The notes under the pieces are model-generated. The model saw only the letters and a list, made by a program, of their open reading frames with translations. It ran no database searches and was not told the DNA's origin. Both the position numbers and the translations under genes were made by a program. DNA of 36,174 nt from Bacilli bacterium (GTDB taxonomy: Bacteria; Bacillota_I; Bacilli_A; Haloplasmatales; Haloplasmataceae), in NCBI GenBank assembly GCA_012516175.1, contig JAAYWZ010000178.1, positions 1 through 36,174 of the forward strand. Reading direction: 5' to 3'. Position 1 is the stretch's first letter; the number at the start of each line of letters is the position of its first letter. Shown one piece after another: positions 109 to 9,985 of the stretch.

Positions 109-2815
<2,707 letters not shown>

Positions 2816-5320: not shown

Positions 5321-5362
5321 AAAAAATCAGATATCACCTATTAAGTGATGTCTGATTTTTTT
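5321..5362. terminator. Bidirectional terminator between pepF and the 5407 gene
   Basis: A-run, ATCAGATATCAC, loop CTATTAA, GTGATGTCTGAT and T-run form a 17-bp stem with one wobble. A and T runs on both sides make it usable from both strands, serving pepF (plus) and the convergent operon ending at 5407 (minus). Confidence 0.9.
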
Positions 5363-5406: not shown

Positions 5407-6276
5407 TTAATGTTTTAATTTATTATCATAGATAAACTCACGCAAATAACTACTTCTTAATAATTCTAATACTGGAGTATCTACATCAAGCATATCACAA
5501 GTAACCAAGCCAGTTTTTAAGAAATTAACACTATGAGCATATTCAGCTAAATGATTATCATAAAAGTATTTCTTATCCAACCCAAAAACATCTATTAAGA
5601 CTTCTACACCATAAATACCTTGATATGTCGGTCCATAAACACTAAATTCAATCAATGGTTTATTTGCATTATTATATTCTTCTTCAAAAAGAAGTGGAAA
5701 GAAACCTAAAGGCCAATCATGGATGTTGATGATATCTATAGGCGTAGTCATTCTTTTAATTACTTCTACACTGGCTTTGGTAAATATCGCAAACCTTATA
5801 GGGTCATCAACATAACCATATATTAAATCCCTTTCAAATAAGGGGTTAGCTATAAAGAAGAAAAGGTTGCCTTTATAAGTTGTTTGATAAATACTTACTG
5901 GATATTCATTATGATTTACCTCAATTACTAGATCATAGGCACGCTCTAAGATTTGACTATCAAGATGATATCTTGGCATAATAACTATCGCTTGATTTTC
6001 ATCAAGTGAACAGTAGCGTAGTTTCTGATAGACTAAATCCCCGATTCCTTCCTTCTTAAAGGGAGCACACTCTAACGATACGATAACAGATAACTTAGGT
6101 TTAGGTTTTTCTTTTTTCTTTATACTCGCAATTTCCATTAAGTCAAGGTCAGGAATAATCTTTTCAGGAACAAGGGACAGATGATTTTTTACATGCTTAT
6201 AACCCAATTCCTTAAGTTTTCTTACCACATCCCGACTTTTAACGCCACGAATCCGAGCATACTCATAAACTTTCAT
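5407..6276 (-). CDS. IF2_N domain plus truncated glycogen-synthase-like (GT5) domain
   Basis: Residues 1-40 (VYEYARxxGVKSRDVVRKLKELG) match the IF2_N helical domain found at the N-terminus of initiation factor IF-2. After a lysine-rich linker, residues 62-270 resemble the N-terminal half of GT5 glycogen/starch synthase: ECAPFKKEGIGD, VIMPRY, NIHDW (HDW 186-188), GPTYQGIYG, and NFLKTGLVTCD. The C-terminal GT-B domain that binds much of the ADP-glucose is absent; the protein stops at 289 residues where about 480 is usual. The conserved KTGGLGD loop reads KEGIGD, one residue short. I infer a non-catalytic or regulatory relative. Its start overlaps the upstream gene by 14 bases, implying translational coupling. 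Confidence 0.7.
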   Translation of the reverse strand: MKVYEYARIRGVKSRDVVRKLKELGYKHVKNHLSLVPEKIIPDLDLMEIASIKKKEKPKPKLSVIVSLECAPFKKEGIGDLVYQKLRYCSLDENQAIVIMPRYHLDSQILERAYDLVIEVNHNEYPVSIYQTTYKGNLFFFIANPLFERDLIYGYVDDPIRFAIFTKASVEVIKRMTTPIDIINIHDWPLGFFPLLFEEEYNNANKPLIEFSVYGPTYQGIYGVEVLIDVFGLDKKYFYDNHLAEYAHSVNFLKTGLVTCDMLDVDTPVLELLRSSYLREFIYDNKLKH

Positions 6277-7000
6277 CTATCCCACCCCTTATTGAAAAGG
6301 TGTATTCAATGGTTTTATTACCTTTAACTAATATACCTAACCCAATGTTTTTTATCGCTTTTTTACCCAAGTTAATTAAGTGCTTTTTCCGAAAGTAAGT
6401 TCCTGTATTAACATAAGCATCAGTGATATTATTTACTGCTAAATTAATACCATTTTCATAAGTAAGTTCAATCTTATTATTAATTGGATAATGCTTAAAA
6501 AACTTAAATCGCTGCGCATAATCTAGTTTATTGTGATCAAGAAGACAAGTGTGATTTAAAATATCTTCCTTAACATTACCAGAAAGGTTAAAGAATAATA
6601 TATGCCCTAGATGAAGATTTAAGTTAGTTTCATAACTAATAACCAATTTATCATCAATTAAGAGGTATACCACTTGAATATATTTAGCATCGGTTTGATA
6701 AGTAAAGATTAAGCCATTTTCTAGTGGTGTACAATCAAAATGATAATTGTAGACTTTTTTATTCTTTCTAAAATTATTGACATCAACTAAAGCGCCAAGA
6801 AAATAAGGATTTTCTTTGTACAACTTATAATCATGATACCTTAAAAGAATACTCTCGAGCTTATCATTTTTATTAGGTACAATGATTTTTGTCAGTGTCG
6901 CACCAAGGTTTAAAGCGCTAAGTTTATACTTACCTGTGTCAATTGTGTACTCATTAACAGCTCTCCCACAATACTCATAAATAAACCGAACTTCTAACAT
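6263..7000 (-). CDS. Degenerate aldose 1-epimerase (GalM-like) protein
   Basis: The 245-residue protein resembles the galactose mutarotase fold: LNLGATLTKIIVPNKNDK near residues 30-47, YFLGALVD near 66, and LFFNLSG at 135-141. True mutarotases are near 340 residues and have a GRxANRI motif and a histidine in NHxYFNL. Here the first reads DVNNFR and the second GHILFFNL, with the histidine displaced by one. Catalysis is therefore doubtful; a sugar-binding role is possible. It lies between the Xaa-Pro peptidase gene (14-base gap) and the GT5-like gene (14-base overlap), in the operon headed by phosphoglucomutase, so a carbohydrate link is plausible. Confidence 0.65.
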   Translation of the reverse strand: MLEVRFIYEYCGRAVNEYTIDTGKYKLSALNLGATLTKIIVPNKNDKLESILLRYHDYKLYKENPYFLGALVDVNNFRKNKKVYNYHFDCTPLENGLIFTYQTDAKYIQVVYLLIDDKLVISYETNLNLHLGHILFFNLSGNVKEDILNHTCLLDHNKLDYAQRFKFFKHYPINNKIELTYENGINLAVNNITDAYVNTGTYFRKKHLINLGKKAIKNIGLGILVKGNKTIEYTFSIRGGIDESL

Positions 7001-7014
7001 ACCCCTTCAACCGC

Positions 7015-8262
7015 TTAAGTCCTAGATTTTTCCATGAATCTTTCGATTTCATCTACAGACTTAATGATAGATTTGGAGAGATTTTCACAACCTGTTTCAG
7101 TTACTAATACATCATCCTCGATGCGCACACCTATTTCTTCTTCAGCGATATAGAGCCCAGGTTCAACTGTTAAAATCATGCCTGGTTCTAGGACCCGTTC
7201 TTTGAATTCTCGCCGACCCACATCATGCACATCAAGACCTAAGAAGTGACCAATACCGTGGTAATAGTACTTACCAACATCTTTTTTATCGGTAATTAGA
7301 CCTAATTTAATGCATTCTTCGGCAAGCATGTCCTTCGCGGTATCTAAGAATTCTCCATAGGTCATCCCTGGTTTAATTAAATTGATCATTGCTTCATTTA
7401 CTCTAAGTACCGCTTCATATACTTCTCGTTGTCGAGGTGAAAACTTACCATTAATCGGAATTGTTCTCGTTATATCTGAACAGTAATGTTGATACTCAAC
7501 ACCTAAATCAAAGAGTACCAATTTACCATCCTCTAATAGATGATCATTTTCTTCATAGTGAAGAATTGTCGCATTCTTACCACTAGCCATAATTGTTTTA
7601 AATGAAGTACAATCAGCTAAGTTGTATTTTACTTCAAAGTCAAAATAAGCTTCTAATTGTTTTTCATAGATACCAGGACGACAATTTTTCATTACCGCTT
7701 GAATACCTTTATTAGTAATTTCAATAGCTTTTCGGATGTTTTCTACTTCTTCTGGTTCTTTAATAGTACGTAAATCATCAATGAGATGTTTTACATTATG
7801 GATTTGGAGATAGGGATGAGTTCTTTGAACTTCATGCGCAAAGTCCAAGCCTGGGTTACCAGGATAATTTTCGATATCAATATAAATATTTTCAAAATGA
7901 TGGTTACTAAATGCTTGGTTTAAATAACCTGGAAAATCTTCCACATAACTTACACTTTCAATACCTGAGATGGCACTAGCTTCATGCGCCCGTAATCTAA
8001 TCCCAATCCATTTTTCAATGTCGGGATCAGGTTTTGTAATGAACAGTTGTTCCTTTACTTTATTGTCATATTTAAGGACCACTAAGATAAACTCTTCTCT
8101 TGTTAATCCAGTTAAATAGTAGAAAGAACGAATGGGAGTAAAGGGATAAGCTTGGTCAGCACTGCGGTGTGGTGCTTTGCCCGCAAAAACAACAACGATC
8201 GAGTTATCCTTAATTAAAGGAAGGAGTTTACTTCGATTTTTTACCGCTAATTCTTTATTCAT
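7015..8262 (-). CDS. pepP: Xaa-Pro aminopeptidase (M24 family)
   Basis: Aminopeptidase P removes the N-terminal residue from peptides with proline in second position, using two metal ions. The creatinase-type N-terminal domain (residues 1-165) is followed by the pita-bread domain with ligands D252, D263 (FDLGxxxxxxCSDITRT), H339 (HGIGHFLGLDVHD), E367 (TVEPGLY) and E382 (RIEDD). An ATG seven codons upstream exists, but GGAGG lies 5 bases before the ATG at 8262, giving 415 residues. The gene directly follows phosphoglucomutase with almost no gap. The pairing with carbohydrate genes appears to be operon packing rather than a shared pathway. Confidence 0.93.
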   Translation of the reverse strand: MNKELAVKNRSKLLPLIKDNSIVVVFAGKAPHRSADQAYPFTPIRSFYYLTGLTREEFILVVLKYDNKVKEQLFITKPDPDIEKWIGIRLRAHEASAISGIESVSYVEDFPGYLNQAFSNHHFENIYIDIENYPGNPGLDFAHEVQRTHPYLQIHNVKHLIDDLRTIKEPEEVENIRKAIEITNKGIQAVMKNCRPGIYEKQLEAYFDFEVKYNLADCTSFKTIMASGKNATILHYEENDHLLEDGKLVLFDLGVEYQHYCSDITRTIPINGKFSPRQREVYEAVLRVNEAMINLIKPGMTYGEFLDTAKDMLAEECIKLGLITDKKDVGKYYYHGIGHFLGLDVHDVGRREFKERVLEPGMILTVEPGLYIAEEEIGVRIEDDVLVTETGCENLSKSIIKSVDEIERFMEKSRT

Positions 8263-8263
8263 G

Positions 8264-9985
8264 TTAACCTCCAATCTTATCAATTCGATCTAGTATGTAT
8301 TGTTTAATACTTTCGTTTTTCGTTTTACTATCTGTTAAACTATTACCCTTCACACCAACATAAATCTTTAGCTTAGGTTCAGTACCAGAGGGTCTTAAAA
8401 CGAACCAAGAGCCATCAGCTAAGATATATTTTAAAACGTTGGATTTAGGTAGGGTTAGTTCACTGATGTTATTCGCATCATAACGTTTACTTACTAAATA
8501 ATCCTCAATTACTTTAACTTCAAGGCTATTAACCGTTTTGGGTGGATTATTACGGAAATCAGTCAAGATTTTATCAATTTTTTGCAAGCCTTCGATTCCT
8601 AATAAGTTGATATTAATTAGTGATTCGTAATAGTAACCATAAGTCTCATACAGTTCATTTAGCACCTCGAGTAAACTCTTGCCTTGGTGTTTATAGTACG
8701 TTGCCATTTCGGCACACATAAGCACTGATTGGATTGAATCCTTGTCACGGACGAAATCAGCGATCAAATAACCGTAGGATTCTTCATAACCAAAGACGAA
8801 TTGTTTGCCTAAATGGCGGATTTCTTCAGCCTTGTCACCAATAAACTTAAATCCTGTTAAGGTAGATTGGACTTCTAAACCAAAACTTCTCGCAATATGT
8901 GCGCCAAAGTCACTAGTAACAATCGTATTAAAGACAACCCCATTTTTAGGTAAGGTCCCTTGGGCAACTTTTTGCGTCAGAATATAATGAATGAGGAGTG
9001 CTCCTGTTTGATTACCAGTGAGTAGCGTATACTCTCCTTCTGAGTTCTTAACCGCTAGCCCTACACGGTCTGCATCGGGATCTGTCGCGATTAAAATATC
9101 AGCATCTTTTTCTTTGCCTAACTTAATCGCAAGTTCAAAAGCACTACCATCTTCGGGATTAGGTGATTTTACAGTACTGAAATTAGGATCAGGTACACAT
9201 TGACTTTCTACTACAAAGAGATTATTATACCCACATTCTTTTAATAACGTTCTTACAGGTACATTACTTGTTCCATGTAAAGGGGAAAAGACAATTCTTA
9301 AGATAGATTTATCAAGTTCAGGATTAAGTTGAATTGTCTTAACTTGATCTAAATAAGCCCTGTCCACTGCTTCATCAATATACACCAATAATCCTTGGGC
9401 CAAAGCTTCTTCTTCAGAGATGACATCAATACCAAAGACATCTTCACACTGTTCAACATAAGCGATAACTTCGTCTGCTAATTCAGGCACTAATTGGCAG
9501 CCATTATGGTCATAAATCTTATAACCATTATATTGAGGTGGATTGTGACTTGCGGTTATAACGATACCGCCAATTGCCTTCAAGTAGCGAACCGCAAATG
9601 ATAATTCTGGTGTTGGCCTTAATGAGGTAAATAAATAGACTTTAATACCATGGGTAGCTAACACCTTAGCTGATTCTAACGCAAATTCCTTAGAAAAATG
9701 CCTATTATCATAAGCAATAACAACTCCACGGTGAGCTTGATTGGGATATTTATTCAATAAGTATTGGCTAAAACCAACATTAGCTCTTCTAATGGTATAA
9801 ATGTTCATGCGATTTGTACCTACACCAACTACTCCTCGCATACCACCTGTACCAAATTGCAAGTCCGTATAAAAGGCATCTTCTTTGTTTTTTTCATCCA
9901 TCATTTCTAATTCTGTTTTTAATTGTGGATCTAACTTGGGGTTAGTTAACCATGCTTCTACTTTTAGTTTCCAATTTGATTCCAT
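8264..9985 (-). CDS. pgcA: Phosphoglucomutase/phosphomannomutase (PgcA type)
   Basis: This alpha-D-phosphohexomutase interconverts glucose-6-phosphate and glucose-1-phosphate, feeding UDP-glucose for glycolipids, wall or storage glycans. The 573-residue length fits the Bacillus PgcA group. The phosphoserine loop is TASHNP (S146), the magnesium loop DPDADR (302-307) and the phosphate-binding loop RPSGTEPKLKIY lies near the C-terminus. The start is set by GGAGGAG, 4 bases before the ATG. It heads a four-gene minus-strand operon with pepP, the GalM-like gene and the GT5-like gene. A TGG-TATACT extended -10 lies 30 bases upstream. Confidence 0.95.
   Translation of the reverse strand: MESNWKLKVEAWLTNPKLDPQLKTELEMMDEKNKEDAFYTDLQFGTGGMRGVVGVGTNRMNIYTIRRANVGFSQYLLNKYPNQAHRGVVIAYDNRHFSKEFALESAKVLATHGIKVYLFTSLRPTPELSFAVRYLKAIGGIVITASHNPPQYNGYKIYDHNGCQLVPELADEVIAYVEQCEDVFGIDVISEEEALAQGLLVYIDEAVDRAYLDQVKTIQLNPELDKSILRIVFSPLHGTSNVPVRTLLKECGYNNLFVVESQCVPDPNFSTVKSPNPEDGSAFELAIKLGKEKDADILIATDPDADRVGLAVKNSEGEYTLLTGNQTGALLIHYILTQKVAQGTLPKNGVVFNTIVTSDFGAHIARSFGLEVQSTLTGFKFIGDKAEEIRHLGKQFVFGYEESYGYLIADFVRDKDSIQSVLMCAEMATYYKHQGKSLLEVLNELYETYGYYYESLININLLGIEGLQKIDKILTDFRNNPPKTVNSLEVKVIEDYLVSKRYDANNISELTLPKSNVLKYILADGSWFVLRPSGTEPKLKIYVGVKGNSLTDSKTKNESIKQYILDRIDKIGG

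Follow-up and report, generated by a model that had tools for sequence, protein, structure and literature searches.

The window analysed here, a 36,174-nucleotide stretch of contig JAAYWZ010000178.1 from a Haloplasmataceae-type genome (G000), carries a gene that joins an IF2_N-type domain to half of a GT5 glycogen synthase (half-GT5) and closes a run encoding a phosphohexomutase, a Xaa-Pro aminopeptidase-like protein and an epimerase-like protein (Table 1). The reading frame agreed with the initial annotation in position, strand, length and start codon. The coupled start and following terminator claimed for it were also borne out, since its first 14 nt overlap the end of the upstream gene and follow a ribosome-binding-site-like sequence, and the convergent M3 peptidase gene is preceded, at about 5321-5356, by a strong hairpin that carries a run of U; a simple terminator scan did not flag this hairpin, which was detected by folding. 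For the epimerase-like gene, the Pfam match was 22.5 bits (cut-off 27), and hhalign against E. coli GalM gave a probability of 46 and an E of 2e-4, leaving the HGG histidine region without a match; judged by these matches, this gene, present in seven f1 genomes, is perhaps a second dead sugar enzyme of the run. Elsewhere in the window, beyond ligA, a 247-aa gene at 109-852 (-) with weak FG-GAP/beta-propeller matches may be a cut or short form, two relatives having proteins of 1057 and 1066 aa there.

Table 1. Features of the half-GT5 locus, in window coordinates.
Feature	Position	Strand	Remarks
IF2_N + half-GT5 pseudoenzyme gene (strongly supported as such)	5407..6276	-	289 aa, ATG start
IF2_N-type domain, residues 1-46	6139..6276	-	PF04760 in 13/13 orthologues; pLDDT about 83-91 over residues 1-50
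Basic low-confidence linker, residues 47-61	6094..6138	-	pLDDT 57 in block 51-60; net charge +4
GT5 N-terminal (acceptor-side) domain, residues 62-289	5410..6093	-	PF08323; Z 24.4 to 2qzs
Eroded ADP-glucose loop KEGIGD, residues 75-80	6037..6054	-	aligned to E. coli GlgA K15-D21
Ribosome-binding-site-like AAGGGGTGG	6282..6290	-	5 nt before ATG; read from sequence
Terminator hairpin + U run, between convergent genes	about 5321..5356	-	-18.9 kcal/mol, z -6.75 (folding)
Coupled upstream gene, degenerate aldose-1-epimerase-like	6263..7000	-	245 aa; in 7/8 f1 loci, contig ends in 8th
Xaa-Pro aminopeptidase-like gene, same run	7015..8283	-	
Phosphohexomutase (PgcA/PGM-like), conserved run	8264..9985	-	

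Pfam profiles identified only IF2_N and Glyco_transf_5 (residues 65-263, 105.6 bits, E 4.3e-30) in the protein, and the G domain and C domains of IF2 were absent. The IF2_N domain that had been proposed was weak in the window copy alone (residues 1-29, 19.8 bits, E 6.7e-4, below the cut-off of 25.3) but significant at the level of the family, with PF04760 matching all 13 orthologues at E up to 0.1 (best E 2.3e-9). In the genome search its cut-off was passed at 10 of the 13 half-GT5 places, those of G000, G001 and G003 falling below, and the frames over the cut-off in 16 genomes were IF2-sized or IF2-like frames (1-2 copies each, their identity as IF2 inspected by eye in G000 only), half-GT5 frames and one full-length fusion in G006. 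The AlphaFold model showed a complete fold (mean pLDDT 89.7), with helices at residues 3-10, 14-23 and 38-46, low confidence at about 51-60 and an alpha/beta domain from residue 62. Residues 59-289, the span of the structural alignment rows (VIA-align), aligned with starch and glycogen synthases, IF2_N being identified by sequence and not by fold match; the score to 6gne was Z 27.3 (228 residues, rmsd 2.3), several N-domains of such synthases scored Z 24-27, and E. coli GlgA (2qzs) scored Z 24.4 with an rmsd of 2.3 over 220 residues. Since the matched chain range in GlgA was residues 1-239, the protein corresponds to the whole N-domain and ends where the second GT-B domain begins. The description as half a glycogen synthase without the C-terminal GT-B half was thus correct, and that half (R300, K305, E377) was absent from all 13 halves.

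A search of 60 relatives found half-GT5 in all eight genomes of the window's family (f1, Haloplasmataceae-type), and five of the eight genomes of a second family (f11, which we presume is perhaps Turicibacteraceae) carry it as well, distributed by genus as 4/5 in g16, 1/1 in g47 and 0/2 in g60; two of the three f11 genomes without it are only 75-85% complete. Matching public records include Haloplasma contractile, Inordinaticella fortuita and uncultured Haloplasmataceae. Among the matches listed for 395 sampled genomes of the class, full-length profile matches in a short frame came from these 13 alone, with G006 adding one full-length fusion; nine carriers, all in f1 or f11, were found in 392 genomes of the phylum (E up to 1e-57), and the 17 records of a plasmid search were glgA-like only, none covering 80% of the query. 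The proteins are 265-290 aa long in f1 and 313-394 aa in f11. The linker of the G017 copy (L042:8886-10067) contains about five acidic repeats of ~13 residues (EVEACLVEMDTND type), for a net linker charge of -32.

The 13 halves lay on one side of a branch in both trees (97/96 with 62 rows, 95/95 with 40 rows; neither tree included plant sequences), and a single origin is favoured by the fusion and the truncation that they have in common, but the f1 and f11 stems are both long and their joining in the trees could be aided by long-branch attraction. The G006 genome, which also carries the half form, encodes a 535-aa full-length glycogen synthase with IF2_N (L044:6186-7793, -). With the changes K15R, Y165N, R300P and K305R at catalytic residues, this protein is also probably inactive. 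It fell outside the halves in both trees and grouping with them was not rejected (p-AU 0.365), so that it could be of the ancestral type or stem from a second fusion. Frames of ~800-820 aa (L046:4050-6458, L048:4100-6502, L049:4217-6628, L050:4010-6463), which resemble GlgD-GlgA fusions, adjoin GlgC and phosphorylase genes in both families, and GT5 frames of comparable length are present in further families of the class.

Comparison of G000 with G001 gave a dN of 0.19 and a saturated dS of 2.70, for a ratio of about 0.07 (0.05-0.09 in flanking genes), and ratios in three other pairs were 0.12-0.22, indicating purifying selection. Identity between these two copies was 89% in IF2_N, 71% in GT5 and 77% in the tail; mean pairwise identity in f1 was likewise higher in IF2_N (0.67 vs 0.47 in GT5), with the reverse in f11 (0.57 vs 0.62). 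The loss of half the enzyme and of the donor loop might be taken as the mark of a decaying, truncated glgA pseudogene, but 13 intact orthologues of the same layout with a conserved tail, the purifying selection and the intact predicted fold make this hardly credible, and we rejected it. At the syntenic locus we saw no full-length orthologue, and the initial judgement that this is a retained gene and not a fresh pseudogene is strongly supported.

In f1 the run of phosphohexomutase, Xaa-Pro aminopeptidase, epimerase-like gene and half-GT5, convergent with the M3 peptidase gene, was found at 7/8 loci. In G003 and G006 further genes are inserted ahead of half-GT5, G007 has an additional gene separating half-GT5 from the peptidase gene, and G005 likewise has one ahead of the peptidase gene, its contig ending just past the half-GT5 start. 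The 14-nt overlap with the upstream gene is shared by G000 and G001, and elsewhere there are gaps of 8 (G004), 23 (G002) and 65 nt (G007), with larger ones in G003 and G006. The neighbours in f11 genus g16 differ from those in f1, and in G058 a phosphohexomutase gene lies three genes upstream of half-GT5.

To locate the active-site positions, we aligned the 13 halves and other enzymes to E. coli GlgA, with roles assigned from Tables 1 and 2 of PMC6210743, in which E9, D137 and Y165 are contacts of the acceptor glucose and K15, G18 and H161 are donor contacts. The acceptor positions were retained (E9 and Y165 in 13/13, D137 as D in 12 and E in one), whereas the donor positions were lost or eroded, with K15 kept in 1/13, G18 in 4/13 and H161 in 4/13 (0/8 in f1, 4/5 in f11). 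N246 and everything C-terminal to it were missing from the 13 halves, and the L19 position was L in eight and I or V in five. The window loop, KKE-GIGD, is one residue shorter than KTGGLAD, with a gap at E. coli G17. The loop erosion reported initially is therefore real in the window copy, but KEGIGD itself is not conserved: the lysine is lost in 12/13, and although the loop is one residue short in the eight f1 members, it is full length in the five f11 members, where S or N stands in place of K, and E, D or S in place of the second G of GG. With donor-site residues lost or eroded throughout the 13 and no C-terminal half, these alignments lend strong support to the earlier argument against glycosyl transfer and to reading half-GT5 as a conserved relative of glycogen synthase that has lost its catalytic activity. 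The acceptor side calls for more caution. Over E. coli residues 2-222, 14 enzymes shared 34 nearly invariant columns, of which 11 were kept in at least 12 halves, and P12, F13, P42, R90, W138 and G167 were as well kept as E9, D137 and Y165, so that retention of the latter, which sit among other conserved residues of the fold, may be structural. A further acceptor contact, Y95, was uninformative because it was gapped in the 13 halves and in all 13 of the other aligned enzymes.

Profiles for glycogen genes were searched in 16 genomes. The window's genome had a single PF08323 place and no complete glgA elsewhere, and in the genome search G000, G001, G003, G004 and G005 each had one GT5 place and no other GT5 gene. 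The same five had no true glgC, their best GlgC-profile matches being below 60 bits against at least 417 in each of the other 11 genomes, and their branching-enzyme matches were below the cut-off (best 302 bits in G001, 293.5 in G000); G005 and G001 are 85% and 91% complete, which makes absences there weaker evidence. Glycogen phosphorylase was present in 16/16 genomes, and alpha-glucan metabolism thus persists in the carriers. The five carriers without detectable glgA or glgC indicate that the pseudoenzyme does not depend on glycogen synthesis. Because the half stops at a domain border, we also considered one half of a split GT-B enzyme of the Alg13/Alg14 type, completed by a separate C-terminal half. 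A GlgA C-half query found no such partner in G000, G003, G004 or G005 and only a match of E 0.0135 within a 981-aa frame in G001, the five PF00534 frames of G000 were all 368-404 aa, as long as a complete GT4-type enzyme, and the donor-loop residues of the N-terminal half are lost too; this very improbable reading was rejected.

By analogy, the closest functional parallel is plant STARCH SYNTHASE 5 (SS5/SSV), which PMC10801857, PMC11772324 and PMC8626487 describe as non-enzymatic. Like half-GT5, it is derived from GT5, has lost the donor-site K15 and His, and has a degenerate or missing GT1 domain (PMC10801857, PMC6013586 and PMC4653816); in maize SSV, according to PMC4653816, K15 is replaced by S and the active-site His (H163) by Q, with the GT1 domain undetected. 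These parallel losses, and the presence of glgA and/or a GlgD-GlgA fusion together with GlgC in 8/13 carriers, would suit a non-catalytic partner of glycogen synthase acting as an SS5-like initiator of glycogen synthesis. Such a role is hard to hold in the five genomes without another GT5 gene or true GlgC, and as a general partnership with GlgA it was rejected on that account; we regard it as improbable. In the same sources SSV begins with a coiled coil, and SS5 acts beside active synthases in granule initiation, whereas half-GT5 has an IF2_N N-terminus and five of 13 carriers show no synthase, so by the tests made the two are not the same family.

Compared with GlgA, half-GT5 shares the N-domain fold and the acceptor-side residues but differs in the absence of the C-terminal domain, K15, G18 and, in f1, H161, in its IF2_N domain and in being kept where glgC was not found. 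With the acceptor side kept and the donor side missing, glucan binding without transfer is most likely, and we give an even chance to a sensor or adaptor that binds glucan, reaches a partner through its IF2_N domain and is encoded with a phosphohexomutase. The GT5 half would bind the ends of alpha-glucan or malto-oligosaccharides and transfer no glucose, IF2_N on its flexible linker would be the output end, docking on a partner that may be a protein, RNA or the ribosome, and the whole would serve as a glucan-responsive adaptor. Glucan breakdown is a plausible input, given that these cells also have phosphorylase and phosphohexomutase. The glycan-binding or regulatory pseudoenzyme first suggested thus stands as a pseudoenzyme, given the 13 orthologues and the lost donor residues; that its GT5 half still binds glucan we infer from the kept acceptor residues. 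The accompanying link to RNA or ribosomes was drawn from the IF2_N name; the domain is basic in one family (+1 to +7) and not in the other (-1 to 0).

The better conservation of IF2_N than of GT5 in f1 suggests that sugar binding may not be the main function. Under full neofunctionalisation, sugar binding would have been lost and the GT5 half would be no more than a scaffold in a complex related to RNA or translation and reached through IF2_N. This is consistent with the 89% vs 71% identity between G000 and G001, with the confinement of over-cut-off IF2_N in the 16 genomes to IF2-like frames, half-GT5 and one full-length fusion, and with retention in genomes without glgA or glgC. There is also a plant precedent in MKIP1, presented in PMC13172542 as a neofunctionalised starch-branching enzyme that became a chloroplast splicing partner; it too is a dead alpha-glucan enzyme retained with an added non-carbohydrate region, but it comes from another enzyme family, from plants, and its partner is known. 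The acceptor-side residues retained in all 13, a basic IF2_N charge not common to f11, and f1 neighbours that are sugar-phosphate and peptidase genes and not translation genes speak against this scaffold-only alternative, which we consider somewhat unlikely although it ranks close behind the glucan-sensor reading. Like the N-terminal subdomain of IF2 (E. coli 1ND9, as cited in PMC3130014), half-GT5 has PF04760 at its very N-terminus followed by a flexible linker, but it has no GTPase or C domains and is joined to a GT5 half. It is doubtful, though conceivable, that the protein links alpha-glucan or sugar status to translation, with glucan binding by the dead GT5 half altering the way in which its IF2-like N-domain competes with IF2, or docks beside it, on its natural partner; if true, metabolism would here act directly on translation initiation or on ribosome-associated RNA.

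The literature searched, with subscription journals mostly outside it, gave no earlier description of an IF2_N-GT5 protein or of a bacterial glycogen synthase pseudoenzyme, and as far as these searches show, both the IF2_N fusion and its retention in genomes lacking a synthase are new. Plants are known to have dead starch synthases, and half-GT5 would be a bacterial case with an independent layout. It is under selection where the ancestral pathway was not found, and its job there cannot be glycogen synthesis. The N-terminal region of IF2 is called poorly understood in PMC11838494, and re-use of its N-terminal subdomain outside IF2 may offer a handle on that region.
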